From Arenicella sp. (lineage in GTDB: Bacteria; Pseudomonadota; Gammaproteobacteria; Arenicellales; Arenicellaceae), in contig JALZVW010000059.1 in assembly GCA_023301745.1 (NCBI GenBank), forward strand, positions 1-44,199: a stretch of 44,199 nucleotides of DNA, given 5' to 3'. A program made the position numbers and the translations under genes. Of this stretch, positions 8,101-40,098 are shown one piece after another (position 1 is the first letter of the stretch; the number at the start of each line of letters is the position of its first letter). The notes below the pieces were generated by a model that did not search any database, was not told where the DNA came from, and was given only the letters and a program-made list of their open reading frames with translations.

Positions 8101-11100
8101 GAGGGGGTAACATTGCTTGGCGGCGTGACGTTAATCAAATAGGTGCCCGCCGGAAGTGCGCCGAAACCATAGTTGCCGTTTGCGTCAGTGACAGTAGTTA
8201 ACGGAACACCGGCGCCATTTCCTAAGTCAATACCCGCTGGCGGTGTAAGCGTCACGGCAACAGCCGAGATCCCGGTATCAAACGCCGAATCAAATACACC
8301 GATGGAGCCTTGTGTGGCGCTATCAAAAAATACTTTATCGCCAATAAAACCCATCGGCGCATAGCCATCGATGCCCAAACTTACAGTGGCTCCAGCAACG
8401 GCGGTTACGGTTGTCGGGTCAGTACCTTCAGTTTGCAGATGGTTCAACGGGAATTGCGCATCAGTTTCATCAACATTCGCAGTCGTTGCGCCAGGAGGAA
8501 CACTTGCGCTGTAGTCGCCATTGATATCACTAGAAACGGTTTGTTGATTTCCATTAGCGTCGGTAATTATGACATCAACACCCGCCAAATCAGGCTCGCC
8601 AGCATCTTGGTTGCCATTACCGTTACTATCGATATACAAATGCCCAGTCACTACTGATGCTACAAAATAGCCGAAATCTTGGTCGAGGTTACCGCCAGCC
8701 GTACTCAATGTTAGTTGACTAAAATTCGGCAAACCACCATCGGGGTCTTGGCTATTTATTTGACCTGCTGGCGGAGTCAATATGGTTACGGTATAAACCT
8801 CAGCGCCATTGGTGGTCGGTAAGCCGGTGTCGGAAGCATCGGCGGTCACGCCATCAGCCTCAAGTAGATCGCCAAATAGATAGTCACCATTGGCATCAGT
8901 CACTTCTGTGCGAACGGTATTTACAGTGTTGTCATCATCATCTAGATCACCACTGATCTGAACGGTGATTCCTGCAAGACCTGGCTCACCTGGGTCTTGA
9001 ACACCGTTGCCGTTTATATCGTTATAAACACGGTCACCAATACGGCCTGTTGCGACATTATTAGCATAACCAAAGTCTTGGTCATTATTAATTATGCCGC
9101 CTGAAATCGATACCGCCGATGAGTTATCGTTACCACCATCGGGGTCTTGAGTTTGCGTGCTACCACTTGGCTGGGTCACTGTGACAACATAGTTTGCATC
9201 AGGTAAGCCCACAAAACTGTAGTTACCGTTCACATCAGTTAGTTGACTGATCGCGACACCAGCCCCCAGCCCGAGGTCTACATTTATCGGTGGGGTAAGC
9301 GTTACCAATACGTTTGGAATACCCGGATCACCACCGTCTTGGGCGCCTAACGTGCCTAAACCCGAGGTAGCAAATTCTTCTGAATAAATGGTATCGCCTA
9401 TGGTATTGCCTTGAAAGTAACCATCATCGCCAGCATCAGCCGTCACACCAGCAACGGCGAGTACATTAGTCGGGTCTACACCATCGGTTTGTATAAAACC
9501 GCTAGGGAACTGAGGGTCATTGTCATCAATATTGACCTGCGTAACGCCGGGAGGCACTTGCGCCAGATAATCGCCATTTGCGTCGGTCTCAACTATCTGA
9601 AAATTACCCAAAGAGTCCGTCACAACAATATCTAAATTGGCAATACCCGGCTCGTTAACGTCTTGAACGCCATTACCATTAGTATCGAGATAGACACGCC
9701 CAATCACGAAAGACGGGTCAAAATAGCCAAAGTCTTGCTCTAGGTTACCGCCCGAATTCAATAGGTTAAAAGTGTTTGAACTATTGCCATCACTACTCGG
9801 GTCGTCAGTATTTTGCAGGCCAGCAGGCGGATTCAGAACCGTTATCTCATACTCGCCGGTTGGCACATCAGTGAACAAATACCCACCGGCAGAATCAGTC
9901 ACTTCAGTTTGGCAAACTGGATTATCGACAATAGCAAGATTGTCGATAAACAAGACTTCACCGGCTGTGTTAAACGAAGCGCCAGGAGCGACCTGAAAAC
10001 GAACTCGGACATTATTCGACCCCTGAGAGTCAAATGGCAGAGTAATATTGCCGCTAAAATCGTCAATATCAGCACCCAAAATAGTCGTCAAATTAGTGAA
10101 CGCGCCACCATCAATCGACAATTCTACAAATATTTGATCAGCGGGTTCATAGGTATCATCAGCACCGCGAAAGCCAAATGTTAGAGCAACACTACCAAAA
10201 CCCGTTAAGTCAATTTGACGAGTTAAACTAGGACTAGGACTACCGTTGTTGCCACTAATACTTAACTCACCAGCACCAGTAATAAAGATACCATCATTGC
10301 CCGGCTGTGTTGTAGCCGGCGAGCCATCATCATTTAACTCAATCCAATCAGAGGCCCACTGAGCAGCATTATTGTTGTAGGCCACTGTGTCGTATTCATC
10401 GGTGGCAACAATAATGGTTCCAAAGGTGCCTCCATCAATGCGGCAAAGCTCAAGATTAATTCCCCCGATACCTGGTTCGGCTGCGTCTTGTATGCCATTG
10501 CCATTGATATCGGTATAAATAAAATCGCCAACTAGCCCAATGGGCACACCGTTAACGTAGCCAAAGTCTTGCGCCAAGGTTGACGCCGACAAGTTAACCG
10601 TTGTGGTGTTGTCTAATACGCCATCTGGGTCAGATACTGGAGAAAAACTATCTGGAGGGGTTACCGTTATAGTATAGTTTTGACCACTTGTTAAACCAGT
10701 AAAAAGGTAGCCGTTGCTGGTTGTTCTAATGGTGAGTGTGTTTTGTATTCCAGGCGTATCTCTATCAACATCTATATCAAGGTTAGCAACGCTAATGGTA
10801 ACGTCAACGCCAGCGATCAGCGGCTCACCTGCATCTCGAGCACCATTGCCATTGAGATCTTCAAATATCTCGTCACCTAAAAACAATCGATCATTACTAC
10901 CAGTTCTAATCGTAGTGCCCACATCAAAGCCGGAATCACCAGGGGCGGTAAACTCTGGGTCTTGCCCCCACGCTGCCGCAAGCAGCACCACCGCAGGGTC
11001 GGCAATCGCAATGTCACCAACACTATTACAAGCAAAGGCAAGCATCCCAGTTTGATCTAAGCCATTATTCGCCTGAACAACACCCTGACTATACAAACGG

Positions 11101-12536: not shown

Positions 12537-12611
12537 TTCATTCCGGCCAAGCGCCATCATTGAATACACTAATACATCTAATCTGTTCATATATGAACCA
12601 ACCCACCGCAA

Positions 12612-22560: not shown

Positions 22561-23682
22561 TTAGTGCCCCATAACGCTAAGTAGCTTGTTATAAATTTCA
22601 GTATTTTCGTACACCCCAGCAAACGCTTCGGCGCCTTTGCCGTAAGCATATACAGGCACCATCACAGAGGTATGGCCTGACGAAGAAAAAGCATGCCCTG
22701 CCTGACTATAAGGTTCATCACTTTTGGTATCCCCGGCGGGCAATGTTAAACCACCCGTTTCATGATCAGCGGTGATCAGTACCAAAGTGTTGCCATCGTT
22801 CTTAGCAAACTTCATTGCCGCACCAACGGCTTTATCAAAATCGTACAACTCACTAATAGTGTAATCAATATCGTTAGCGTGGCCACCCCAATCGATTTGA
22901 GCACCTTCGGCCATCATGAAGAACCCAGTTTTACTTTGTCGTTGTAAAAACCCGATACTCGGCTGAATCGATTCAGCTAAATAATCACTTCGACCGTTGC
23001 CAACTGACTCAGGGTGGTTGTCGGCCGTAAAGTAGCCTACTCGGCCACTGGCTTTTTCAAGCTCATCTAAAGCACTAATAAATGTGACGCCTTTGGCGGC
23101 CATCTCTTTGACTAAATCGCGATTATCAGGTCGCCCTCGGTTCTTATCGACGCGATTGTCAAAATGGTCTTCAGCGCCACCAATAAACAAACTAACCGGC
23201 GCGTCGACGAGCTCTTCGGCGATTGAATAGTATTTCTGGCGGCTCTCTACATGGGCATAAAAACTAGCTGGTGTGGCATGCGTAATACCCGATGTGGCGA
23301 TCAAGCCGGTGGCATAACCTTTCTCGGCAAGTAATTCTAACAAGGTCTTCTTTGAGCCACCGTTGGCGTCCAAACCAACAGCACCATTATAGGTTTTAAC
23401 GCCAGTAGAAAACGCCGTGGCCGCCGCCGCTGAATCCGTGATAGCTTGCTTAGAGCTGCTTGTTTTAATCAAGCCAATATAATTAGCGCTTTCGATATTG
23501 AGCGGCTCTTCTCGCTGCTGAATCGCCTTAGACACTTGCGCCAAGCCCATGCCATCTCCGATTAGAAAAATCACATTTTTAACCGGGGTTTTAACGGCTG
23601 TCGGCTGGGGCGCTGTTGGTCTATTTGAACCAGAACAGGCCGCCACGCTGACTAAGAGCAGTATTACAGATATATTTTTCAT
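22561..23682 (-). CDS. Alkaline phosphatase, lipoprotein (PhoA family)
   Basis: 373 residues. A lipoprotein signal with lipobox VAAC (Cys about residue 16) puts it in the envelope. The PhoA-family motifs are intact: metal-binding NVIFLIGDGMG, the nucleophile segment TDSAAAATAFSTGVKTYNG, metal ligands in EGAQIDWGGHAND and TADHETGG, and a C-terminal His in GHTSVMVP. It releases phosphate from phosphomonoesters with zinc and magnesium. It is shorter than E. coli PhoA (about 450 residues in mature form), as many marine versions are. I see no Pho box upstream. Confidence 0.93.
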   Translation of the reverse strand: MKNISVILLLVSVAACSGSNRPTAPQPTAVKTPVKNVIFLIGDGMGLAQVSKAIQQREEPLNIESANYIGLIKTSSSKQAITDSAAAATAFSTGVKTYNGAVGLDANGGSKKTLLELLAEKGYATGLIATSGITHATPASFYAHVESRQKYYSIAEELVDAPVSLFIGGAEDHFDNRVDKNRGRPDNRDLVKEMAAKGVTFISALDELEKASGRVGYFTADNHPESVGNGRSDYLAESIQPSIGFLQRQSKTGFFMMAEGAQIDWGGHANDIDYTISELYDFDKAVGAAMKFAKNDGNTLVLITADHETGGLTLPAGDTKSDEPYSQAGHAFSSSGHTSVMVPVYAYGKGAEAFAGVYENTEIYNKLLSVMGH

Positions 23683-23792
23683 TTTTACATTCTACTAAAT
23701 ACTAAGTTTCGAAATTTTAATACCGAATGCGCAAAACGTTACTCAGCAATAATGATTGATTCGATCATAGTACTTACGTCAAAAAACGGCTA

Positions 23793-24233
23793 CTACTTAA
23801 CTAAGATATTAAGATGATTTTTTTCTTTTCGTATTCTAATTGGTCGCCAGGTTACGACCAAATCCCTTATTAAAAAGCCGGTGACGAGCACGGCCAGTAT
23901 AGCGATTACCCACATCGTCTGACTCAGCGCCACACTCGCAGAGTTACTATTAAAAAGTAACAGACAGCCGGCGAGCAAAACACTCAAACCGATCAACGAC
24001 TCTAAGCAAAAACATTGTTTTTCAATCTTCTTCGGTGAAGGTCTCTCGGTTTTTTTTGAGGCATAAAACAATATAGAAAGATCGCGTACTAGGCTTTGCA
24101 GAAAAACAAGACCGGCAATCCATATGACACCCTGGCCTAACAATACTTGTTGGGGAAGCCACGAGTAAAAAAGATACACGCCGAACACCAAAACGGTAAT
24201 TAAGCCTAGCTCGATCACCTTGGGCTTTGTCAT
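23793..24233 (-). CDS. Four-segment membrane protein, last gene of the radical SAM operon
   Basis: 146 residues with about four hydrophobic segments and a basic C-terminal tail. No family recognised. It starts 19 bases after the GST-like gene on the same strand, so it is very likely co-transcribed with the radical SAM, DUF547 and GST-like genes. No catalytic motif is visible. Confidence 0.65.
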   Translation of the reverse strand: MTKPKVIELGLITVLVFGVYLFYSWLPQQVLLGQGVIWIAGLVFLQSLVRDLSILFYASKKTERPSPKKIEKQCFCLESLIGLSVLLAGCLLLFNSNSASVALSQTMWVIAILAVLVTGFLIRDLVVTWRPIRIRKEKNHLNILVK

Positions 24234-24252
24234 TTATGCGCTCACACTTAAG

Positions 24253-25014
24253 TTAGCTAAGCAATCGACGCTTTAAGAATTTATCAGGCACAAGCAAGGG
24301 GTTATCGGGTAAATAACGGGCTACCCGCTTAGCCCAAGCATTCACCTCAGGTTTATCAAGCACAAAGCCGTTAGTGCGCATACCCATCATATAAGCATTC
24401 ACGACGATCGGGAAAGCCGACAAGTCGGCCAGTGAAGGTGCCGATTGCCCACCTAGAAATTCACCACCTTCAAGGTGGCCAACAAATTCATTTTGCAAAC
24501 GGTGGAGCATGTCGTCCATCGTTTCAGTTAAATCCAGCTGTTTAACCATATTGACAATAAAGGGGGCCTTCTTAACCCCAAATGGCCAAATCAATCGCAC
24601 GTAACCTGGCAAGGGTGTGGCATCACTTACTGCATTCGAGAGCTTCCAACCGTTAGTAATTGAATTAAACGTATTTTGCCATTCGCAGGCCCCTCGAAAC
24701 ATGCTCGGGATCAAGGATTCGCTAACCCATTTATCAATTTCTAAAATTCGTTCTCGCTGGTCGGCATTATCGGGCAACATCGGGTTATCGGGGTATACCT
24801 CGTCTAACCAGATACCTAATTCGCTGGATTCTTTACGCCATTGGTCACCAATTTGCATCACAGGTACTTGGCGCTGGCGAGTGAACTTAATTTGATCATT
24901 GGTCAGCGGGTTAACTCCAATGAACTTAAAATCTAACTTTTTAAATTTCAGGTAACACCCAACCTTCTGCGCGTAAGGGCTGGTTGGGTAAGAAAATAAT
25001 TGTATGTGGCTCAT
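24253..25014 (-). CDS. Glutathione S-transferase family protein
   Basis: 253 residues. The N-terminal thioredoxin-like domain has SPYAQKV (the SPFARKV-like motif with the catalytic Ser region), the cis-Pro segment QVPVMQ and the glutathione-binding ESSELGIWLDE. The C-terminal helical domain includes 'PSLADLSAFPIV', the usual GST N-cap/hydrophobic-staple region. An extra hydrophobic middle ('GYVRLIWPFGVKKAPFIV') is unusual for small cytosolic GSTs. It starts three bases after the DUF547 stop, so it shares that operon; the substrate is unknown. Confidence 0.85.
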   Translation of the reverse strand: MSHIQLFSYPTSPYAQKVGCYLKFKKLDFKFIGVNPLTNDQIKFTRQRQVPVMQIGDQWRKESSELGIWLDEVYPDNPMLPDNADQRERILEIDKWVSESLIPSMFRGACEWQNTFNSITNGWKLSNAVSDATPLPGYVRLIWPFGVKKAPFIVNMVKQLDLTETMDDMLHRLQNEFVGHLEGGEFLGGQSAPSLADLSAFPIVVNAYMMGMRTNGFVLDKPEVNAWAKRVARYLPDNPLLVPDKFLKRRLLS

Positions 25015-25017
25015 AGC

Positions 25018-25905
25018 TTAGCTTGGAAATTTTGTGATCTTTGACTTAAAACCATCATCACGCTTGTTCGACAATCGTGGCTCTGGCGCTTGATTGATTG
25101 TCCAATTGTAATCTATGAATTTAACCTTGTAATTAGTCGGTATCGGGTCACTTCGATATTGATTTACATAGGCAACTAAATCGCCTTTCTTCCCTGATGA
25201 TACATAATCTTTAGTATAAAACTTCATGATTCCTGATAAGTAAACAATCTGTTTATCAGCCGAAATTTCAATATGCTTTGGCTTGTTAAAAAATTCAACC
25301 GCGGCAATCTGTAAATCATTCTCTAGAGATTCAGGAGTAAATATTTTCATTGGCAAACGCGGGCAGTCTACCACCATACAGTTCAACGCAAAGTGCACGC
25401 GAGGCTCACCTAAGGGCCGAATAACCCGATTTTCATAGTCGTATAAATTAGTTTTCTTGCCGCCAATCACTACTCGGCGAAATTTAAAAAACGATGCGCG
25501 CTTTAATAAAGAACTGAAGTTCGCCGGAATGCCTCGCTCGATCACACCTTTCATCGCCAATGCATTGTAGGCATTGATGTGGTATGCCAATACATGTGCT
25601 TGAGTCGGAAATGCCTCCGGGTGGCTTAGTGGGCTAATCTCAGCAACGGCGTCAACAAAAAGTTGGAGCTGCGATATGTCTTGCTCCAGCGCTTCGAAGT
25701 CAGTACGGCCTTGATCATCAACAAACCGCTCTAATGTTTGCGACCAATCAGAGAGTCGGTCTTGATAGGGGTTTGATTTCACATCAAATGCGTTCGCTGT
25801 ATTCATGACGCTCAATATTAATAACACTACAAAAGCCTTTAGTGCAGCAAGCTTTTGAATACGTAATGGGGTCTTAGAAAAAGGTATTTGTTTGGAAAAA
25901 ATCAT
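25018..25905 (-). CDS. Exported DUF547 domain protein
   Basis: 295 residues with an N-terminal hydrophobic segment ending NTANA, a likely signal peptide. The DUF547 domain is clear: 'AYHINAYNALAMKGVIERG', 'GGKKTNLYDYENRVIRPLGEPRVHFALNC' (split here around its centre) and 'DCPRLP'. A Cys/His-rich core of this kind suggests a papain-like peptidase or transglutaminase relationship, which is inference. AAGGA seven bases before the ATG overlaps the radical SAM gene's stop region. Second gene of a four-gene operon. Confidence 0.88.
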   Translation of the reverse strand: MIFSKQIPFSKTPLRIQKLAALKAFVVLLILSVMNTANAFDVKSNPYQDRLSDWSQTLERFVDDQGRTDFEALEQDISQLQLFVDAVAEISPLSHPEAFPTQAHVLAYHINAYNALAMKGVIERGIPANFSSLLKRASFFKFRRVVIGGKKTNLYDYENRVIRPLGEPRVHFALNCMVVDCPRLPMKIFTPESLENDLQIAAVEFFNKPKHIEISADKQIVYLSGIMKFYTKDYVSSGKKGDLVAYVNQYRSDPIPTNYKVKFIDYNWTINQAPEPRLSNKRDDGFKSKITKFPS

Positions 25906-25915
25906 AATAATCCTT

Positions 25916-27208
25916 CTAGGCGCTTACTGCGACTTTGATAGAGAGAGGTTTGTACTGCAAACGTGTTCCATCAGCTCGAGTAATCTCTAATGGGCGTAAA
26001 ATATAATCGTCTCGTTGTGAGTTATGTTGGCACATAGATACGGGGCCTTGGTCTGTCATAACCATGAAAGAACAACCGTCGATACGCTCTTGCACTAACT
26101 CTTCAGCGTCCATAAAGTTTTGAACAAAGAACGTAAGTTGATTTACTTGTCCTCGGGCTGTGAGTAAATCTTTGGCCATAGCCCACATCAATCTAGAACC
26201 ATGAGCTAAGAAGCGCAGCCACCACCGCGGGCGTATGGCGAGCGCGGTTAAAAATTCAAACGCTAATTTAAATTTATTTTGTTGGCGATCCCATGATATA
26301 TGTTCAAAATCTTTAAGAAAATCGGCGAAGAAAGCTTTGTTATTAACAAGTGGGTAGATTGTATTATTCACCACTACCGTAGGCATATAAAAGTGGCAGT
26401 CTGTGTGTCCAACTTGAATTATGTCCCAAGGCAAGTCAGGCGATGAGCCCTTTTCAATTTGATTACACACCGATTGCTTATTGATCACAATATCGCGTTC
26501 ACGCCACTCACCTCGACCAGTATCGGCCTGCAACTGAAACGACACCAAGCCAATTTGGTCGGCTCGGTGCCGAAAGAATTCAACCAGGCTAGGTATTTCT
26601 AAAAAATTACCAATGTGCACGGTCGTATTAAAAATGACCATTAGGCCTAAACCTTTAGTACGGTCTAGGTAATCATCGCGAACCCCGTTTAGCTCGGCTT
26701 CTAGTGTTACTTCAACACCGTCAATTTTACGGCGTTGTGTGCTGTCGACATGGAAGGCCACATCGCGCAAACCAACCGCGGCTAAATTGCTGAGCAGTTT
26801 ACGCGTGGCACCAATGCCATTAGTAAACAAAGCCGTATAGAGCCCAATTTTGTTAGCGTAGCTGATGATTTCAATCAACTCGCTATGCTTTCTCAAGGTT
26901 GGATCACCACCTGTGATTTGAACATGGGTGCCCTTACCATAGTGTTTAATTACATCATCCAGGCGACGAAAGACTTCTTCTATCGGAATGTCAGCCACCT
27001 GCTGGGAATGCTCCGAGAGGTAACACAAAGTGCAATCTAAATTACACTTCTGAGTAATTTCTACCGCGACGCAGCCAATCGTTTGCAAGCGCCCTAATAT
27101 CTGGTTTGAGGTAAATAGCTCTCCCATACGCTCCTGGGTCTCACCGAGCTGTTGGGCTCGAATGATTGCATTAGCTTGCTCAGATTTTATCGAATTAATG
27201 TGCGTCAT
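25916..27208 (-). CDS. Radical SAM enzyme
   Basis: 430 residues. The [4Fe-4S] motif CNLDCTLC (CxxxCxxC) lies near residues 54-61, followed by the SAM-binding QITGGDPT (GGE-like) segment. The core spans about residues 45-250. The C-terminal ~180 residues hold more Cys (CNQ, DCHF, GCSF, MCQHNSQRDDY) that could bind an auxiliary cluster. It looks distantly like radical SAM proteins acting on lipids or pterins, but I cannot assign a reaction. It leads an operon with DUF547, GST-like and membrane-protein genes and is divergent from a catalase-like gene. Confidence 0.87.
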   Translation of the reverse strand: MTHINSIKSEQANAIIRAQQLGETQERMGELFTSNQILGRLQTIGCVAVEITQKCNLDCTLCYLSEHSQQVADIPIEEVFRRLDDVIKHYGKGTHVQITGGDPTLRKHSELIEIISYANKIGLYTALFTNGIGATRKLLSNLAAVGLRDVAFHVDSTQRRKIDGVEVTLEAELNGVRDDYLDRTKGLGLMVIFNTTVHIGNFLEIPSLVEFFRHRADQIGLVSFQLQADTGRGEWRERDIVINKQSVCNQIEKGSSPDLPWDIIQVGHTDCHFYMPTVVVNNTIYPLVNNKAFFADFLKDFEHISWDRQQNKFKLAFEFLTALAIRPRWWLRFLAHGSRLMWAMAKDLLTARGQVNQLTFFVQNFMDAEELVQERIDGCSFMVMTDQGPVSMCQHNSQRDDYILRPLEITRADGTRLQYKPLSIKVAVSA

Positions 27209-27291: not shown

Positions 27292-28260
27292 ATGTTAGAT
27301 AAAAAGACGGTGTACGCGGCCCTTATAAGCCTGGCGATTCTTTACTCGACGGTTTCTGTAGCTCAAAGCTCAGGCGCCGCGGATCAACGCCAAAATCGTT
27401 ACCACGCTGTAAAAGACGTAATCTTTGCTACGCCATATGACAGCCTGCCCTATTACAAGGTAAGTAAAGCGCTCTTTAAAAGTAAAGAAAAAGGCGCGGA
27501 AAGCCGTCTACTTAAAGACGCCCGGCGTACCCTTTCCAGCTCCGACGATTTACTCAGTAAAGATAGAGGGCAAAAGCTATTACAAGCTAATGGCATATGC
27601 TTTGCCGGAGAATGGGTTATTGATCAAGGCTCAACTTTTTCTGGCCTATATAAGCAAACAACACGAGTACCAGTCATCGCACGCGCATCAGTTTCGTTCA
27701 GCGGCACCAAACAAAACGAACGGCGCGCTCTTGGTTTGGCGGTAAAATTATTTCCTAATGATTTAGGCCCATCACCAAGCCTGAATATCTTCACCTTACA
27801 TTCTGTTGGCGGAGTAAAGACTAAACACCTTCTCGACTTGAGCCTCGACAACGAGCCTCCGCTAGGCCGAATTCCAAGATTTCAAGATATTTCTACAGCG
27901 CTTAAATTAAAGAGCGAGCTGTTAAAAGCCGACAAAGAAGCCGGTTCAGCAACACCCAGCGTAACGTTTAGAACCGTTGCACCATTGGCCGAATATAAAG
28001 AACAAAACACCATCGCGCCTCGGTGGTTGCGATTCAGCGCAGCAAATAAGATTCGTATTGATAAACTAGATTTTAGAGATGAACTGCGAGTTGAGCACTA
28101 CCCAAATGGCCAGCTCATCTACCAAATTGAGGTGGCCGATCAAGTTAAGCAAAAGAAATCTAAAGCTCAATGGCAAACTATTGGCCAGTTGGTTTTAAAT
28201 GAGTCGGTTACATCCAAGGCATGTGATACCCAATTACACTTCGCTCATTCTAAAAACTAG
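27292..28260 (+). CDS. Exported, divergent catalase-like protein
   Basis: 322 residues with a signal peptide (ending SVAQS). The segment 'NGICFAGEW' to 'RVPVIARASVSFSG' and 'RRALGLAVKLFPND' matches the catalase fold core in the divergent catalase-like subfamily found in proteobacteria. It is much shorter than true catalases (about 480 residues). The distal catalytic His is not at the usual place (Cys103-Phe in GICFAG), and the proximal RxxxY haem-ligand motif is not obvious, so catalase activity is doubtful. It is divergent from the radical SAM operon. No Shine-Dalgarno sequence is visible. Confidence 0.75.
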   Translation: MLDKKTVYAALISLAILYSTVSVAQSSGAADQRQNRYHAVKDVIFATPYDSLPYYKVSKALFKSKEKGAESRLLKDARRTLSSSDDLLSKDRGQKLLQANGICFAGEWVIDQGSTFSGLYKQTTRVPVIARASVSFSGTKQNERRALGLAVKLFPNDLGPSPSLNIFTLHSVGGVKTKHLLDLSLDNEPPLGRIPRFQDISTALKLKSELLKADKEAGSATPSVTFRTVAPLAEYKEQNTIAPRWLRFSAANKIRIDKLDFRDELRVEHYPNGQLIYQIEVADQVKQKKSKAQWQTIGQLVLNESVTSKACDTQLHFAHSKN

Positions 28261-29306: not shown

Positions 29307-32300
29307 CTATAAATTGAGTAAAAATGTCAGAGCCTGCCTGCCAGGCATAAAGAAATATGCGGCACCTTTAGTCGTAACAAAAGACTGAAAGCCGGTTAGA
29401 GTTGTACTGCCCCGGTTCGACGGTATCGTGAATTTTTTTGACATTGGGCATTTGCCCGAGCTTATCGAATCAGTCTCTCCCATCAGGCCGTGAAAGCTAG
29501 AATTACCCAACCAAGTTTGTTGTACAAATTCAAACTGGCGTTCAATATCAGCGTTTAAACACATAAACATTAATCCCTTCTCACCAGTACTCGCTTGATG
29601 ATACGGGCGCCCGATTCGCAAAATTCTATGTCGGTTAGATAAGTCCATTTGCGTTTGAGTATCGGCCCCTAAACTATCTCGCGGGTTAGCTCGGCGAACG
29701 TGTGCACCGAGCGGGCATTGCAGGCCTTGCGGGTCTTCTTGTCTATACCGAAAATTATTTTCGGCCTCACCTTGCATATGCTCTGATGAAAACCTGACCA
29801 ATGGTCGACCGTCTTTCCAGCGCCCTAACATTTTTGCGCCTACCCATTCTGGCGTGACAGTTTCAGGGCCATCGGCTTCATTCAGCTCGTGCGCTTTGGC
29901 ACCACAAAATGTGTTAAAGGCATCCACATCTTGTTGCAACTGACGAATGACTAGATAGGTACCATTAAAACCAAAATCTTTTCGCGCACCTTGTCGTGTT
30001 TGAAAGGGCTCTTCAGGCAATACGTTTGAAGTATCTTTGCCAATGTTGACCACAGGCGATGGTGATATATTGTCGCGCTGATCAGGGTAACCACAAAGCA
30101 CTTCGCCCGGCGCCACAAGGTGATCATGTTGATTTGTGCGTTGCGCTTTACTAGTGCCTTTGATTATCGGTTGAGAAATACCATCAACAAAACCAAATGG
30201 CTCGACGGCCGCACCGTCGCCGTTGCGTACTACATCACAGTTTTGTTCCGACACGATTCGTGCATTAGCATGATCGATTAGCGCTCTGGTTTCGGCTAAA
30301 CGAGGTTCAGCTTGTGAGGCCGTTTCAAAATAACACATCAAGACAAAATCGACCTCGGTGTCACCATTACCCCATTGCCAGTTATCTGGATGACTTGCTT
30401 CGTCATCACCGAGTATTCGCGATCGCGCGACGCTGTTGACCCCTTGGCAGAATACATTTGGAAAAATTTGGTTGCCATTATCATCTGACGACAAGCCTAA
30501 GCGCCGCAAGCCTCGATGGGTAAATGCAATTTGGCACACGTGCTTGCCATTGGGTGTTTCACCGAAATCTACTTGCTCTATTATGTGGTGCATCAGTGTT
30601 TTCATCGATTGCTTATCGCGTTGAACCCCGAATGACACAAATAATAATTTACTATGCGGCAAACGCTTGCCCAAACCACCAAAGACTAACGATTGGATAT
30701 TTGATTTGTCCAGGCCGGCACGTGGGCGATGAGATGACCCAAACAAGGAGAACCATTGATCAGCTTCTCTGACATCATTTATAGCCGCAAAGCCTTCTCG
30801 AATTTTGGCATTTTTGCGAATCTCACTGGTCGTCAAATTAGGGTAAGAAACATACCAAAATGGAGTGGGTTTTTGTTGTTGTCTGGCCCAATATTTAAAC
30901 GGCTCACTTAATTTCGCACCACTCTGTGCCAGGTATCGTGTACGCGGAAAACCTACAGTGTTACTCCAGATACTGGTTAGCCCTTCGGACCCCTTAGTAA
31001 TAAAATCTTCCAGATACGATTCCCAACTTCCCCCATAGTTACTGAAGAAAACCAGTTGTCGTGTTTTAGGAATTCGAATCCAACGCGCGGAATGAATTGA
31101 GCTGATCACAGACAGAATACCGGGTGGGTTTTTATAGCCTGCCGCCAATTTAATTGACCAAAGCACACCACGTAATAGCAGAGGCCTCATCAAACTTGGC
31201 TTAATACGAGATACCGAAAACATATGATTGTGTTTAAGTTGATTTTCTCGGCTGGTAACTGCATCGTAATTACCCTGTTCAGGTAATATTAGATCAGCCG
31301 GGTCACTTTTTTCTAAGCGGCGAAGGTAAGCGATGATCGCGCTGGCAATGGCACCAATAAGCAATATTGCGCCGACCGCCGTAATACTAATAGCCGCACC
31401 AAGGCGGCCTAAGTTAGGCCAAAACCCGATTAATGGCCCACCCAAAATTTGAAAATTCACCACAATGAAAAATAAAAGAGTCATCGCTGGCGCTAATGAC
31501 CAAGGCTGACGAATGTAATCAACTAAGTACCTGACTAAGCCCACCTCAGATTCAGAGAGACGATTTCTAACTGATGTGAAAGCCCAATTATAGCCCTCTT
31601 CAGAGGCTATTTTTTCACGCACTAATTTAAGTCTCTCTAGTGAATTATTGGTCGCAGACCATGGCTCATCTAAGACAAAATCATAAATCAATTTTGATAA
31701 TTCAGCTTCTTTCTTAATGCGCTTAACACTGTGCCCTGGAGTACCGTTAAAATTAAGGCCTAGGTTTTGATTTAACGGATCAACGCTGCTTATACGGGCA
31801 GAGGCAAAGATGAACGGCAGGCGGTCGTCGGCATCAACTTTGCACGCGGCTCTTATTTGCTCACCTAGCATCGGCTCGAGTACACCAGCAACATGTGCAA
31901 TTAATACGTCTTCTGACTGATCGCCAGAGATCTCGAACAATAGATGAGCTGGGTCTACTTTTTCCCCTGCGTGATAATAGGCGGGGCTAATACAGCCACT
32001 GGCAAAGTGCACATAATCTGAGAAAAGCAAGGCGCCGACCAAGTTTTGATCGCCCGCCGTGATTTCAGGTGATGCACATGCAACATTGCCTAGTGATTCA
32101 AGCGCTAACACTAGTGCCGGCAGCTGGGCGTCGCGTTCAATGGGTATACAGATTGAACTAAACGTTTGTTCTTTGTCGCCATAGCGATCTACTTGATCCC
32201 AGGTCAGGCGAATCGATTCAGGGAAGATACCGATTCGCTCCATTCTGCCGGCCTTGCCTTTACGACTATCCAGCCCTGGTAGCGAAAATAGTTTTTTAAA

Positions 32301-33488
32301 TATTTGAGTTGAAAACGCACGCGCCATTGGTGCGCCGATACAGCTGTGTAAGCCGTATCCGAATATCATCGAATTTTGACTATCGCGGCCAGGCAAAAAC
32401 TCATCTGGTTGACTTACACTTTCTGGGTCAAACATGGCCGACAGTGTCGATGGAATAACCAAAGAGCCTTTCGCAATTTTTTTTTGTCTGCGAGCACCTT
32501 CACCGATCACATAGTCTTGTTCACAAATACGAAACGGGCCAATTTGAATTGGATTAAATCTCATGACTTCTTCGATAACCGATTGTAATTGTGCGTCATC
32601 ACCTTCAGTTATCGATGCCAATACAGCACTGTGAGCCTCGGCTTTACTGAGAATTACTTCGAGTGCATTGCCAATGCCGAATATGGTCGTTGGCAAGAAA
32701 CCGAGAACCATTCCCATCATGATCGAGCGAACATCCTTGAGCGGAACATCATCAGGGGTTGCCATGTGTGCTTCGACGAGTTTGTCTAATGCGCTAACCG
32801 CTTTGGTCTTAGACGTTTTCGATTTATCAATAGAAAAATCGATTACTTCAAGCATATACTTTGCGCCGCTCATGGCTAATTCACGCGTGGCGGCGCTGCC
32901 AAAGACATCGGCAAACAACAGTGAACTTACGCTCAACGATGATTGGTAGAAACGCTCACCGTTACCAATATGCAAACCGAAATATTCATCGCATATAGCG
33001 AGCGCCGAGGGCTTAAATAGATCTTCGATTGGGTTAAATTCGGACGAGACAGAACGCAAGGACCGCTGCGCATGACGATCTGTTATTTGGCTAATAACAG
33101 CGGCCATCTCCTGTGGTGGGAACGCCTTGAGAATGAGTTTTTTTTGCGATCGATATACAGCACCATCGTTACTGCCAAGAATAAAATCTCCACCGCCACT
33201 GACAATTCGCATTTCAGGGCCAAAGGGCACGGTAAATACTTTAGTGTTGGTTAATACCTCACGCACATCGGCCGCGCGAGTGACTAAGACAAAATCGCCA
33301 AGACGAAGCACAGGGCACAGCCACCTAAGTACTTTAAGCAGTTTTATCGGGCTTCGAAACAGTCTTGACGCCACCTTTGCGGCAATCCCCTTAGACCGCA
33401 GTTTTTCGATATCAAACGCCGGCAGCTTTGATTCGAGATCAGTTGACCTCAGGTCATTGACCCGATCATAATATTTCACCTTTGGCAC
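29307..33488 (-). CDS. Cytochrome P450 - membrane - DyP-type peroxidase fusion
   Basis: 1393 residues. Residues 1-430 are a P450: ExxR at 307-310 and the haem motif FGYGLHSCIG with Cys383. The I-helix reads GFLPTT at 263-268, so the usual acid before Thr is Pro266. Residues 430-660 and about 755-905 look like two related ferredoxin-like segments ('HFASGCIS...', 'SIHSARWIR...SNYGGSWES', 'WSNTVGFPRT'). Two hydrophobic segments lie at about 665-682 and 694-722. Residues 930-1393 are a DyP peroxidase: GFVDG at 1099-1103 (Asp1102), proximal His1263 in GAHVRRANPR, and 'RHRILRIG'. The GTG start is seven bases after AAGGAGG, which overlaps the regulator's 3' end, so translation is coupled to it. Confidence 0.9.
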   Translation of the reverse strand: MPKVKYYDRVNDLRSTDLESKLPAFDIEKLRSKGIAAKVASRLFRSPIKLLKVLRWLCPVLRLGDFVLVTRAADVREVLTNTKVFTVPFGPEMRIVSGGGDFILGSNDGAVYRSQKKLILKAFPPQEMAAVISQITDRHAQRSLRSVSSEFNPIEDLFKPSALAICDEYFGLHIGNGERFYQSSLSVSSLLFADVFGSAATRELAMSGAKYMLEVIDFSIDKSKTSKTKAVSALDKLVEAHMATPDDVPLKDVRSIMMGMVLGFLPTTIFGIGNALEVILSKAEAHSAVLASITEGDDAQLQSVIEEVMRFNPIQIGPFRICEQDYVIGEGARRQKKIAKGSLVIPSTLSAMFDPESVSQPDEFLPGRDSQNSMIFGYGLHSCIGAPMARAFSTQIFKKLFSLPGLDSRKGKAGRMERIGIFPESIRLTWDQVDRYGDKEQTFSSICIPIERDAQLPALVLALESLGNVACASPEITAGDQNLVGALLFSDYVHFASGCISPAYYHAGEKVDPAHLLFEISGDQSEDVLIAHVAGVLEPMLGEQIRAACKVDADDRLPFIFASARISSVDPLNQNLGLNFNGTPGHSVKRIKKEAELSKLIYDFVLDEPWSATNNSLERLKLVREKIASEEGYNWAFTSVRNRLSESEVGLVRYLVDYIRQPWSLAPAMTLLFFIVVNFQILGGPLIGFWPNLGRLGAAISITAVGAILLIGAIASAIIAYLRRLEKSDPADLILPEQGNYDAVTSRENQLKHNHMFSVSRIKPSLMRPLLLRGVLWSIKLAAGYKNPPGILSVISSIHSARWIRIPKTRQLVFFSNYGGSWESYLEDFITKGSEGLTSIWSNTVGFPRTRYLAQSGAKLSEPFKYWARQQQKPTPFWYVSYPNLTTSEIRKNAKIREGFAAINDVREADQWFSLFGSSHRPRAGLDKSNIQSLVFGGLGKRLPHSKLLFVSFGVQRDKQSMKTLMHHIIEQVDFGETPNGKHVCQIAFTHRGLRRLGLSSDDNGNQIFPNVFCQGVNSVARSRILGDDEASHPDNWQWGNGDTEVDFVLMCYFETASQAEPRLAETRALIDHANARIVSEQNCDVVRNGDGAAVEPFGFVDGISQPIIKGTSKAQRTNQHDHLVAPGEVLCGYPDQRDNISPSPVVNIGKDTSNVLPEEPFQTRQGARKDFGFNGTYLVIRQLQQDVDAFNTFCGAKAHELNEADGPETVTPEWVGAKMLGRWKDGRPLVRFSSEHMQGEAENNFRYRQEDPQGLQCPLGAHVRRANPRDSLGADTQTQMDLSNRHRILRIGRPYHQASTGEKGLMFMCLNADIERQFEFVQQTWLGNSSFHGLMGETDSISSGKCPMSKKFTIPSNRGSTTLTGFQSFVTTKGAAYFFMPGRQALTFLLNL

Positions 33489-33490
33489 GG

Positions 33491-35863
33491 CTAAACCTCC
33501 TTGTAGGCTTTGATTAGGCGTTCGTTGTATTCTCCATTTATAAACGGAATAGCCCGAATATTGTCTTCATTGACATTAACTTTTCGGCTAATAATTTCGG
33601 CCTTTTCTTGTGCTGCTCTTTGTCGGTCTCCATCGTTATTTCTGGCTATTAGGCACGCGATTTTAATCACCCGGGCGTACCAGTACCTAGGCGCCAAGAA
33701 AGATGAACGTTCAGCCGCCTCTATTGATTTGTCTAATTCTGATGAAAAATAATAAGCGGCTGCCAACTCAGCAAGACTGTGAAATCGATAATAGTCAGAA
33801 GGGTTCAGCGCTAACGCATGACGAATATCGTTTGGCGCAAGCTCGGGCTTAGCCACTAAAAGATTTGCGCTGCCGCGAGACGAATAAGCAAAAGAGAGAC
33901 TCGGGTTCAAGCGTATCGCTTCGTCAAAGAAAGCAATCGCGCTCGCGGCCTGATTTCGCATGATTGCAATCGCGCCTAAGTAAGCATGAACTCGCCCGTC
34001 TGACCTATCCATTAATAACGCTTTGCGGCATAAACGACTCGACTCTTCTAGGTCATGATCAGTTTCTTCGATTCCATGAGCCGACCAAGCTTTCCAAAAA
34101 TACCACCATGCGAGTGCCACCAGAGCTTCCGATTGGTACTCGTCTCGTTCTAACGCCCGCTCATATAATTTTCTGGCCCGCGCGACGCCGGTCGATGTGC
34201 GCCGAGCCATATGCCAATGGCCACGATGCACTAACTGCCATGTCGTTAAGTCATCAATACGGCTCTCATAAGCGCGAACTTGTTCGTGTTTTCCAAGCTC
34301 TTGCAGCAAGTGTGCGGTTATCTTGGTTGCAACTCGCTCTTGTAGTTGCATGATCTCGGTTATTTTTACCGAAAACGATTCGGACCAAATTATGCGATTA
34401 GACGCAACACTCTCTAACGTCACTACAATGCTAAGCACGGCGTTAGACACTTTAACCGAGCCGCCTAGAATATAGTTAACCCTTAGGTCTTTGGCCGCGG
34501 CTTTTGAATTACCACTTTCGTACTCGTAGGAAAAACTAGAATTACGTGAAATCACATTGAGCCAATGATTATTTGAAAGCGCGACAATAATGTCGTCAGC
34601 CAAGCCTTCACACATATACTCATCAACCGAGTCATCGGACACTCTAAACGGCAACACACCAATTGATGGTCCGTCGTCATCGTTCAAACCCATATCCAAG
34701 GGTTGTTTCATCAAACCCGAAGTCGACTCCGTTAGTGCGACAGCGTGAGACACACGAAACAACCGAATCGGCTTCGATAGTTTGCCAACCGAACACTCTT
34801 TGTCAAACACGAATTGATAGTCAACCTTTCCTTGAACCAAGGCCGCAGAGGCTTCAGTAATCATGACCAAGCCTCGCTCGCTGATATTGCTCGCTTCATA
34901 AGCAATATCACATTCGGTTCCGTACAAGCGATTTTTCTCTCGATAGGCCACACCGCTATTAATGCCAATACCAATACTTAAACGGCTCTGAGCGGCCCCT
35001 TCTTTAAAGGCATCATGCAAACGGTCAATCAAGCCCATTGCCAGACGCACGGCATCATAAGGCCTCGCAAACTCGACTAGAACATGGTGCCGCTGAACAT
35101 CAAATACTCGGCCACCACTTTCTGCGGCGCCGTCTCGAATCATCGCAAGGCCATCGTTAAATTCAGAGGTGCTTGCTTCTCGCTGTGAATCGCCCAAGCG
35201 AACCACAACGGCGGTAACCATCACCTTTTGACCCAAGTTATCGAGCTCTGAGGCTTGCGAATTAGCAAGCTGCAAACCCGATGAGCCTCGCTCTATTTGT
35301 TTGGCAACACGCCGCTGCCAAACTTGACGCTCGAGTGTCAACCAGTCCTCGAACTCTGGGTCTCGGATATCCATACCCTCCAGCAAATCTTCATTCAGTG
35401 CACGTTCAAGCACCGCACTATCATCATCTAATAGAATTAAGCTTTCTGTATCAATGTTGATTTTACTAAGATCTAAGGATATCGATTTTTTATCGGCTAA
35501 AATTATCTCGACGCCGAGGTTTCCTAATACCCTGCGAGCGTCTAACAGGGCTTGGCGTAAGCTCGCGCCAGCCTGTTCTTCACTTCGGTCGCTCCAAAGC
35601 TTATCGCGTATCCATACGCGGGTTCGAGTAGCACGAGGCGACAGAGCCAACATTGCCAACATGGCGCAGGTCTTCTGTGTTTTGGGCGTTATTACATTCC
35701 CTTGTGTGTCGGTGATGGCAAACGGACCAAGCAGAAAAAAGCGACATGCTATCTGCTCGGTAACAACAGGTTCAAAACTCACGCTCTGTGCTCCTATGCT
35801 GTTCTCAAAGCCATACAACACATCGTATTTCGCCTTGCTTGTAATCTCTACATTCGCCTGCAT
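33491..35863 (-). CDS. Regulator: winged helix + degenerate cyclase + TolB-like + TPR
   Basis: 790 residues from the ATG at 35863, chosen for AAAAGGGG eight bases upstream; the frame also has an ATG at 35923 with no Shine-Dalgarno sequence. Residues about 40-115 are an OmpR/SARP-type winged helix ('RTRVWIRDKLWSDRSEEQAGASLRQALLDARR'). About 210-360 is a class III nucleotide-cyclase-like domain in which the metal-binding Asp positions are lost (VVVRLGDS, VQRHHVLVEF). About 405-525 is a TolB-like domain ('IGVLPFRVSD...EGLADDIIVALS'). The rest is TPR repeats. It is probably the activator of the coupled P450-peroxidase gene and of itself. Confidence 0.88.
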   Translation of the reverse strand: MQANVEITSKAKYDVLYGFENSIGAQSVSFEPVVTEQIACRFFLLGPFAITDTQGNVITPKTQKTCAMLAMLALSPRATRTRVWIRDKLWSDRSEEQAGASLRQALLDARRVLGNLGVEIILADKKSISLDLSKINIDTESLILLDDDSAVLERALNEDLLEGMDIRDPEFEDWLTLERQVWQRRVAKQIERGSSGLQLANSQASELDNLGQKVMVTAVVVRLGDSQREASTSEFNDGLAMIRDGAAESGGRVFDVQRHHVLVEFARPYDAVRLAMGLIDRLHDAFKEGAAQSRLSIGIGINSGVAYREKNRLYGTECDIAYEASNISERGLVMITEASAALVQGKVDYQFVFDKECSVGKLSKPIRLFRVSHAVALTESTSGLMKQPLDMGLNDDDGPSIGVLPFRVSDDSVDEYMCEGLADDIIVALSNNHWLNVISRNSSFSYEYESGNSKAAAKDLRVNYILGGSVKVSNAVLSIVVTLESVASNRIIWSESFSVKITEIMQLQERVATKITAHLLQELGKHEQVRAYESRIDDLTTWQLVHRGHWHMARRTSTGVARARKLYERALERDEYQSEALVALAWWYFWKAWSAHGIEETDHDLEESSRLCRKALLMDRSDGRVHAYLGAIAIMRNQAASAIAFFDEAIRLNPSLSFAYSSRGSANLLVAKPELAPNDIRHALALNPSDYYRFHSLAELAAAYYFSSELDKSIEAAERSSFLAPRYWYARVIKIACLIARNNDGDRQRAAQEKAEIISRKVNVNEDNIRAIPFINGEYNERLIKAYKEV

Positions 35864-35938
35864 AGTAACAACCCCTTTTACACTCGTCAAATAGACATCT
35901 ATGGCCCAAACTGACACCGGCATTGATCATTGTGCAGC

Positions 35939-39384: not shown

Positions 39385-40098
39385 ATGAATCAAGAGACTG
39401 AAGTAAATATAGAAAAACAACGAGCGTTGAGCATTGCTTCAAACCAAGGCTGGTTTGAAGGCCTAAATAGTGATGAAATTACCCGCTTAGTTGAGTTATC
39501 TAAAATCAGAAACTACCAGGCTGAAGAATTAGTCTATGTACCTGGCGAAAAGCAGGATAATCTTTACTGTATTATTGAAGGCCTGGTCAAAGTCTCTCTT
39601 GTTAATGAGCAAGGTGATACCTTTCCATTAACCATCTGGGAAGCAGGCAATTGGTTTGGCGAAGGGGCTCTTAGTCAAGGATCCGTCATGCCCGTGGAAG
39701 CCTCTGCGCACGTTGACACCAAGGTGTTGGTTTTGCCAATCGCTGAGATTGACAACGCGCTGGAGAATGGAATCACATTTTATAAAAACATTGTACAAGA
39801 CATGATCGGTCGAACTCAGCTGTTGTATCGACTGGTAGACATGTTGTTATTTAAGACGCTACGAGCCAGGCTGGCGGCTAGAATATTGCATTTAATCAAA
39901 TTATTTGGAGAACCCTGCTCTGATGGAGTAAGGCTGCCATTGGAATTCAGCCAATCAGACTTCGCTCAAATGAGCGGCGGTTCTAGACAACGGGTCAATA
40001 GAATAATGGGCGAGTGGTACAGCAGTGGCATTATGACCAAGCAGGAAAAACGATATGTGGTTCATAACCTTCAAGGCTTAGAAGCCGAGACCACTTAG
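39385..40098 (+). CDS. Crp/Fnr family transcriptional regulator
   Basis: 237 residues. Cyclic-nucleotide-binding-like beta-roll at about 25-140 ('YQAEELVYVPGEKQDNLYCIIEGLVKV' split over several strands, 'WFGEGAL'), dimer helix at about 145-170, and winged helix at about 175-225 ('FSQSDFAQMSGGSRQRVNRIM'). No Fnr-type N-terminal Cys cluster is present, so oxygen sensing by an iron-sulfur cluster is unlikely. The exact ligand is unknown. The MFS transporter gene follows on the same strand after about 215 bases and is a possible target. Confidence 0.92.
   Translation: MNQETEVNIEKQRALSIASNQGWFEGLNSDEITRLVELSKIRNYQAEELVYVPGEKQDNLYCIIEGLVKVSLVNEQGDTFPLTIWEAGNWFGEGALSQGSVMPVEASAHVDTKVLVLPIAEIDNALENGITFYKNIVQDMIGRTQLLYRLVDMLLFKTLRARLAARILHLIKLFGEPCSDGVRLPLEFSQSDFAQMSGGSRQRVNRIMGEWYSSGIMTKQEKRYVVHNLQGLEAETT

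Follow-up and report, generated by a model that had tools for sequence, protein, structure and literature searches.

Results

A single reading frame joins a cytochrome P450, a membrane hairpin and a peroxidase

Here, we analysed a 44,199-nucleotide stretch of DNA from Arenicella sp. (NCBI GenBank assembly GCA_023301745.1, contig JALZVW010000059.1, positions 1 to 44,199; hereafter the window) and found on its minus strand a gene whose single uninterrupted frame encodes a cytochrome P450 (P450), two copies of a domain that we name IHFA after its motif, a pair of probable transmembrane (TM) segments and a dye-decolourising peroxidase (DyP). The gene starts with GTG, and a ribosome-binding sequence, AAGGAGG, lies at 33496-33502 within the 3' end of the upstream gene. 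The gene and its parts are as follows.

29307-33488, minus strand: P450-IHFA1-TM-IHFA2-DyP fusion protein, 1393 amino acids (aa)
32181-33488, minus strand: cytochrome P450 domain, residues 1-436 (PF00067, our own profile, structure-model match)
32685-32702, minus strand: P450 I-helix motif G263-F-L-P-T-T268, with Pro266 at the usual Asp/Glu position (alignments)
32559-32570, minus strand: P450 ExxR motif, E307-R310 (alignments)
32334-32363, minus strand: P450 haem-thiolate loop F376-G-x-G-x-H381-x-C383-x-G385 (alignments)
31689-32171, minus strand: IHFA copy 1 (MID), about residues 440-600 (profile-profile matches)
31329-31496, minus strand: two hydrophobic, probable TM segments, residues 665-683 and 702-720 (hydropathy scan)
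30699-31136, minus strand: IHFA copy 2, about residues 785-930, IHSARW...FFSNYGGSWESYLEDFI (profile comparison), the slowest-evolving part
29310-30683, minus strand: DyP-type peroxidase domain, residues 936-1393 (TIGR01413; D-type DyPs of the PDB)
30180-30194, minus strand: DyP GFVDG motif with distal Asp1102 (alignments with 7anv and among fusions)
29700-29702, minus strand: DyP proximal His1263 (alignments with 7anv and among fusions)
29625-29627, minus strand: DyP Arg1288, candidate distal Arg (7anv alignment; invariant across aligned fusions)

This layout bears out the first-pass annotation of the window, which had proposed one frame joining a P450, membrane segments and a DyP; the residues it named (Cys383, ExxR at 307-310, GFVDG at 1099-1103 and His1263) are correct, and the two hydrophobic segments it placed at 665-722 lie at 665-683 and 702-720. 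Across 13 aligned fusions, E307/R310, H381-x-C383, G1099-D1102-G1103, His1263 and Arg1288 are invariant, and by hydropathy the two segments recur in 13 of the 14 loci at which the P450 comes first. Judged from these residues, both haem sites of the fusion appear intact.

The N-terminal third falls into the P450 superfamily: the Pfam family p450 (PF00067) matched residues 66-397 with 51.5 bits (cut-off 22.8), our own P450 profile, partly built from the window sequence, gave 810 bits, and the ExxR (E307/R310) and FxxGxHxCxG (F376-G385, with C383) motifs are both present. The haem Cys and ExxR are retained in all 16 aligned rows of fused P450s. P450-derived glycosyltransferase activators have lost the haem Cys; the fusion keeps Cys383 and reaches 32.5 bits on their family, TIGR04515, where the cut-off is 343. 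Structure prediction, a check proposed by the first-pass annotation, helped in part: of two runs with three sequences each (mean predicted local distance difference test score, pLDDT, 57.4 and 35.6) the first was searched, and its low-confidence model resembles P450 folds (best 6f88, E 7e-9), while the models as such are weak.

The physiological role of DyPs is mostly unknown, and we know of no DyP that acts as a dioxygenase. TIGR01413 (Dyp_perox_fam, NCBIfam) matched the C-terminal part of the fusion at 103.5 (cut-off 100.5), which places it in the DyP superfamily; Dyp_perox_C (PF20628) scored 29.5 (cut-off 20) and DyP_N (PF21105), at 18.8, stayed under its cut-off of 27.5. Among PDB sequences, the D-type DyP 7anv matches this part best (E 1.1e-30, residues 974-1387). 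The distal Asp of GXXDG (D1102), the proximal H1263 and, by alignment, R1288 are all present, and the importance of the Asp and the Arg in DyP peroxidases is described in the consulted parts of PMC8230527. The fusion resembles the D-type DyPs 7anv and 2d3q in sequence, in the Asp of GXXDG, in the proximal His and in the candidate distal Arg, but its DyP is embedded as the last third of a membrane protein that also holds a P450 and IHFA copies.

The fusion is conserved and under purifying selection

Full-length fusions are encoded by three of the 17 other genomes of the genus (G006, G007 and G009; G numbers denote genomes and L numbers loci) at 62-71% identity, by a Phyllobacteriaceae metagenome-assembled genome at 39% identity, and by six further genomes in a phylum sample of 398 genomes. 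It is also carried by complete plasmids of three Alphaproteobacteria, Pararhizobium qamdonense, Novosphingobium aromaticivorans DSM 12444 (homologue WP_011907039.1) and Sulfitobacter pontiacus, and the product names in these three records mention one or other half of the fusion. The P450-first order is conserved over 14 loci, from the genus of the window to another class of the phylum. Two separate genes in close relatives were the observation that, according to the first-pass annotation, would have spoken against a genuine fusion; all three same-genus homologues are single-frame, and together with the three complete plasmids they exclude a sequencing error that joins two genes.

In the closest same-genus pair, whose dS of 1.2-1.7 is close to saturation, the ratio of nonsynonymous to synonymous substitution rates (dN/dS) was 0.047 for the P450, 0.104 for IHFA1, 0.080 for the TM region, 0.029 for IHFA2 and 0.054 for the DyP. 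The less diverged pair L074/L075 from the other class gave 0.104, 0.135, 0.258, 0.058 and 0.081 in the same order, and two pairs from that class range from 0.05 to 0.26. In the pairs tested, purifying selection acts on every domain of the fusion. A viral origin was rejected, as six peptide patterns gave no match among viral contigs. In the parts of the open-access literature consulted we recognised no paper on such a fusion, and protein databases were not searched for the architecture.

Most P450s linked to a DyP lack the I-helix acid

Monooxygenase P450s typically, though not by definition, carry an acid-alcohol pair in the I-helix. In the fusion this pair is replaced by Pro266-Thr267, and the acid is found in 0 of the 16 aligned fused rows; the 14 P450-first fusions read G-F-x-P-T-[T/N], and most relatives without a DyP end in E-T-T. 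None of the 17 fused P450s retains the acid, whereas 4 of the 24 DyP-linked P450s encoded nearby do, which makes 4 of 41 linked ones (fused or within 2.5 kb). Among unlinked P450s, where 'unlinked' means that the fetched stretch (4-16 kb) holds no DyP, 23 of 24 retain it. These counts are to be read with some care: the first 56 P450 rows derive from queries containing a P450, the linked set includes the near-identical pair L090/L091 and the opposite-strand P450 of L152, one P450 of L156, at 4 kb from the DyP, was scored as unlinked, and the counts omit the L161 frame at 429-1874, which has the acid but an empty Cys column.

In a tree calculated without the motif columns, most linked P450s fall into one clade; next to L154 stands a subclade of unlinked P450s that keep the acid, and the acid-keeping P450 of L173 groups with generic P450s. 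On this tree, linkage takes three changes and the acid four. From the alignments, a P450 half without the acid of O2 activation is what would be expected of a peroxide user. As far as the consulted parts of PMC5818669 go, the H2O2-driven CYP152 peroxygenases have the I-helix acid-alcohol pair replaced by Arg-Pro, so that a broken pair accompanies H2O2 use there. The fusion P450 differs in having Pro at the acid position, a retained Thr and no Arg (GFxPT[TN]), and because the CYP152 Arg is absent it is not a CYP152 member. RoxA-like cytochrome c genes adjoin acid-keeping relatives of the fusion's P450 branch (L095:2869-5085, L096:7140-9353) and a DyP-IHFA locus without P450 (L183:8453-10318); the calls for L095 and L183 are Pfam matches, that for L096 was made through similarity.

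The IHFA domain accompanies DyP in most surveyed loci

The residues between the P450 and the DyP matched no Pfam or NCBIfam family, and a PDB profile search with IHFA gave nothing below E 0.04. In profile-profile comparison, copy 1 matches stand-alone IHFA-type proteins and the N-terminal part of 435-aa proteins. Compared directly with each other, the two copies in the fusions match weakly (probability 2). They have their other matches in common, however: a set of stand-alone proteins and a set of 435-aa proteins from related loci that hold two copies, the first of which is matched by copy 2 as well. The shared matches suggest that the regions flanking the TM hairpin represent one domain family. 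It occurs as stand-alone proteins, as pairs and as fused copies (examples are L090:3-608, L086:4354-4998 and L030:10305-11612), and in the DyP-only survey described below it lies in or beside the DyP in 28 of 33 loci. Since the hairpin has two segments, it would place both enzymes on one face of the membrane. A 12-kb permafrost plasmid, pALWED3.4 of Acinetobacter lwoffii (L120), carries genes for an IHFA protein, a DyP, a catalase family protein and a 3-hydroxyacyl-CoA dehydrogenase in a row.

Separate, reordered and catalase-linked relatives

Is the link between DyP and a second haem protein confined to the fusion? When the fusion served as query, the modules turned up in many genomes as separate adjoining genes. 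Because these queries contained a P450, we repeated the survey with the DyP alone in 347 genomes of one order, scoring up to four first-look candidates per genome, and obtained 33 loci in 29 genomes (E <= 1e-40); the stretches of L108, L109, L177 and L192 stop early at contig ends. Six of the 33 DyPs are fused to a P450 (five P450-first, one DyP-first) and 12 have a same-strand P450 within about 2 kb, which makes 18 with a P450 fused or near; four have a catalase-related gene.

Several of the arrangements are informative. L180-L182 are a split counterpart, in which a P450 gene is directly followed by an IHFA-IHFA-DyP gene, and they are sister to the P450-first fusions. In L155, L157 and L193, which form a separate clade, the fusion runs in reverse order with the DyP first; Pfam finds both halves in L155 and L193, and the P450 of L157 was found solely by our own profile, at 39 bits. 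L082 is a DyP-catalase fusion by our own profiles, where Pfam gave no family. A further protein, of 1587 aa (L109:392-5155), combines a DyP with a C-terminal GDSL-type lipase region (Pfam match below threshold, E 7.4e-6).

With the exception of L173, the catalase-related loci carry no P450 in the stretch; in these loci the catalase-related protein occupies the place of the P450. The profile of this family matches solved catalases, the PDB entry 3e4w (listed there as uncharacterised, and which we take to be a mini-catalase) and the allene oxide synthase 1u5u. All 12 aligned members have Arg-x3-Tyr, and in 8 of the 12 the position at which a catalase aligns its distal His is taken by Asn or Gln; examples are L030:7305-8501, L080:4521-5726, L092:7884-9080, L093:7833-9029 and L029:7102-8172. 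The association of DyP with haem partners of the peroxide type extends well outside the window.

Genomic context and regulators

Two putative regulatory genes lie near the fusion gene:

33491-35923, minus strand: upstream coupled gene, 810 aa, with a degenerate class III cyclase-like region and TPRs, ending 2 bases before the fusion gene
39385-40098, plus strand: Crp/Fnr-type regulator with a domain binding cyclic nucleoside monophosphates

A cyclase-like/TPR gene adjoins 13 of the 14 P450-first fusions (the exception is L025), and a homologue of the Crp/Fnr-type regulator lies in the stretch of 9 of the 14, at varying distance. Judged by the metal-binding Asp, the cyclase motif is degenerate in three aligned versions from the genus of the window; L075-L077 and L114 preserve it better, and none was seen in L078, L079, L115 and L116. 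Upstream of the G009 fusion the regulator (L028:3149-5662) is read as two open frames of 596 and 239 aa, from a frameshift or an assembly error. The split relative L180 sits behind a cyclase-AAA-TPR protein, whose cyclase region matches the Pycsar (PycC) models of PADLOC. It was the only match among seven proteins given to PADLOC; the other six (the fusion, its regulator, the L180 split protein, an IHFA protein, a catalase-related protein and the L114 cyclase) had none. A known defence system was accordingly rejected for the fusion protein and its own regulator.

The first-pass annotation had also mentioned nearby divergent glutathione S-transferase (GST)-like and catalase-like genes. The former exists as a GST_N protein (24253-25014, minus strand), but on the same strand as the fusion, about 4 kb off and with two opposite-strand frames between; it belongs to a separate block (22561-27208, minus strand) of alkaline phosphatase, a 146-aa frame, GST-like protein, DUF547 protein and radical SAM protein. 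A catalase-like gene was not found among the 23 window frames scanned with Pfam, nor with our own catalase-related profile. The frame at 27292-28260 matched no Pfam or NCBIfam family and has a weak, probably compositional PDB match. At 10-12611 (minus strand), a C25-family peptidase gene adjoins, on the same strand, the gene of a 3477-aa protein with many SdrD_B-like repeats, possibly a large surface protein with the peptidase as its processing enzyme.

Links to lipid hydroperoxides

P450s that convert fatty-acid hydroperoxides are known from fungal DOX-CYP fusions and plant CYP74, and in Nostoc a catalase-related hydroperoxide lyase is encoded beside a cyanobacterial haem 10S-DOX (consulted parts of PMC13049297 and PMC9579011). 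In four catalase-linked genomes (G032, G039, G411 and G789) a protein of the animal-type haem peroxidase/dioxygenase family is encoded 2-9 kb from the DyP; such proteins, of about 1000 aa, stand beside DyP and catalase-related genes at L029:4117-7059, L080:10271-13414 and L082:2269-5295. The nearest solved relatives of the G411 protein (L080:10271-13414), the sole one compared with the PDB, are fatty-acid alpha-dioxygenases (E 8.9e-59). The operon of L090 and its near-copy L091 adds a patatin and a FadL-type porin.

Discussion

To our judgement the chances are about even that the window encodes a membrane-anchored two-haem enzyme, in which a peroxide-driven P450 is combined with a DyP, perhaps for lipid-hydroperoxide chemistry, in an operon run by the cyclase-like/TPR protein. 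The P450 half would have abandoned reductive O2 activation and would draw on a peroxide or hydroperoxide instead, with no need for NAD(P)H redox partners. The DyP half would be an intact peroxidase that shares its substrate, product or oxidant stream with the P450. Both halves would be kept on one side of the membrane, beside the lipid substrate, by the pair of IHFA copies together with the TM hairpin. We speculate that, as the likeliest chemistry, the P450 would convert a fatty-acyl or similar lipid hydroperoxide by rearrangement, cleavage or peroxygenation, that the DyP would reduce or radical-oxidise a partner species, and that the cyclase-like/TPR signalling protein would run the operon. 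We infer the peroxide-driven P450 mechanism, and more weakly the lipid substrate, the channelling of an intermediate and the role of the regulator; a lipid hydroperoxide as substrate is a reasoned guess. The first-pass annotation had likewise supposed that the two halves share a peroxide or hydroperoxide at a membrane, and this idea is supported in part. The architecture, the apparently intact haem sites, the missing acid, the conserved hairpin and the peroxide-type partners elsewhere agree with it, whereas the lack of lipoxygenase and PF03098 matches in the genome itself and the TPR and cyclase neighbours speak against a lipid pathway.

Several observations weigh against this interpretation. 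The P450-first fusion is rare, found in 2 of 369, 7 of 398 and 1 of 385 genomes in three samples, query genomes included. Four DyP-linked P450s retain the I-helix acid (L154, L156, L173 and L179), and one unlinked P450 lacks it (L164:6853-8136, motif AGNVTT). The I-helix alignment is uncertain for L084, L105, L155, L157 and L193, without which the acid is retained in 4 of 36 linked versus 23 of 24 unlinked P450s. Acid loss represents few evolutionary events: since only two to three independent pairs are available, the phylogenetic pair test has no power (p = 1). Eleven of the 33 surveyed DyPs have neither a P450 nor a catalase-related partner, two of the four catalase-related genes lie on the opposite strand, and L173 has a catalase-related gene plus a P450. 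The structure models are too poor for the geometry between the haems to be derived. As for lipid chemistry, the genome of the window has no match to lipoxygenase (PF00305) or to the animal haem peroxidase/dioxygenase family (PF03098), and among ten genomes with P450-first fusions one has a lipoxygenase and three have PF03098, on other contigs or more than 100 kb away. A Pfam scan of 110 of the 115 operon-like neighbour proteins, with figures from the best 25 of 122 families, gave TPR and cyclase rather than lipid enzymes as the commonest families, with Guanylate_cyc as the top non-TPR family (10 of 110) and FadL in 2 of 110, from two near-identical loci. The five proteins outside the scan (window:33491-35923, L024:6506-8998, L027:10154-12664, L080:10271-13414 and L029:4117-7059) are all of types already identified.

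Among the other explanations, the one we would rank highest, though we consider it rather unlikely, is an H2O2-driven peroxygenase with a peroxide guard: the P450 would hydroxylate or decarboxylate in the manner of CYP152, the DyP would remove surplus H2O2 or oxidise the product, and no lipid hydroperoxide would occur as intermediate. Such an enzyme would fit the loss of the acid from most DyP-linked P450s, the intact DyP residues and the precedent of CYP152 (consulted parts of PMC5818669), but the carboxylate-binding Arg of CYP152 is absent, with Pro at the acid position and Thr kept, and catalase-related partners with a replaced distal residue (8 of 12) are unlike simple peroxide guards. That the P450 is an ordinary O2- and NAD(P)H-dependent monooxygenase with the DyP as an accessory detoxifying domain is improbable to us. 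The canonical P450 fold and haem motifs and the acid kept in four DyP-linked P450s speak for it, the absence of the acid from all 17 fused P450s against it. Nor did a crude scan for ferredoxin motifs in the 14 fused loci yield an accepted ferredoxin gene, which is a weak point, as the scan gave 11 short-frame matches, five of them inside fusion genes in another frame, and included no control loci.

Equally improbable, in our estimate, is a role in signalling, as a haem-based sensor of peroxide or as an effector, in which P450, IHFA and DyP report to the coupled cyclase/TPR protein and make no product. It would account for the cyclase-like/TPR gene beside nearly all P450-first fusions, for the Pycsar-like cyclase region in front of the L180 split relative and for the frequent Crp/Fnr regulator. 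However, both haem centres retain the expected residues in the aligned fusions, the cyclase region of the window regulator is degenerate and none is seen in four loci, some catalase-linked loci have dioxygenase-family genes instead, and PADLOC did not match the fusion protein or its own regulator. Finally, a chance read-through or assembly artefact without function is hardly credible. Because the genes of the same modules adjoin in other genomes, a lost stop could join them, yet one frame is conserved in 14 loci including three complete plasmids and dN/dS is low across all domains in the pairs tested, so that the data already refute it.

How does the two-haem enzyme compare with known systems? 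In the consulted parts of PMC13049297, the fungal linoleate diol synthases and Ppo enzymes also join two unrelated haem superfamilies in one polypeptide, a peroxidase-like one and a P450 without redox partners, and they share with the window fusion the bacterial-type HxC in the Cys pocket. In contrast, the peroxidase half of the fusion is a DyP and not a relative of animal peroxidases and cyclooxygenases (no PF03098 match), its P450 is N-terminal, and the halves are separated by a TM hairpin and IHFA copies. The window fusion is a convergent analogue of the fungal Ppo enzymes and not a homologue, and the unrelated ancestry assumed by the first-pass annotation is correct. The catalase-linked genomes G032, G411, G789 and G039 pair the same two gene families as the cyanobacterial 10S-dioxygenase/hydroperoxide lyase and the coral catalase-related allene oxide synthase systems, but their loci add DyP and IHFA proteins, and in other genomes a P450 replaces the catalase-related protein.

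More tentatively, and with odds that we place below even, these loci may represent an undescribed modular bacterial system of a DyP, paired IHFA copies and an interchangeable haem partner, either an acid-less P450 or a catalase-related protein, encoded separately or fused in either order. It would make signals derived from lipid hydroperoxides or repair peroxidised membrane lipid, tied to cyclase/Crp-type regulation, and the window protein would be its all-in-one form, an independently evolved bacterial counterpart of Ppo. The main new fact, though it represents few independent events, is that the I-helix acid is missing from most DyP-linked P450s and kept in nearly all unlinked ones. DyPs also gain a specific set of partners, with IHFA as a new domain that marks them. 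The swap of partners, the opposite fusion orders and the loss of the acid mainly in the DyP-linked branch point to an uncharacterised bacterial peroxide pathway. In a fusion of P450 and DyP, nature would offer a self-contained oxidation catalyst that needs no NAD(P)H.

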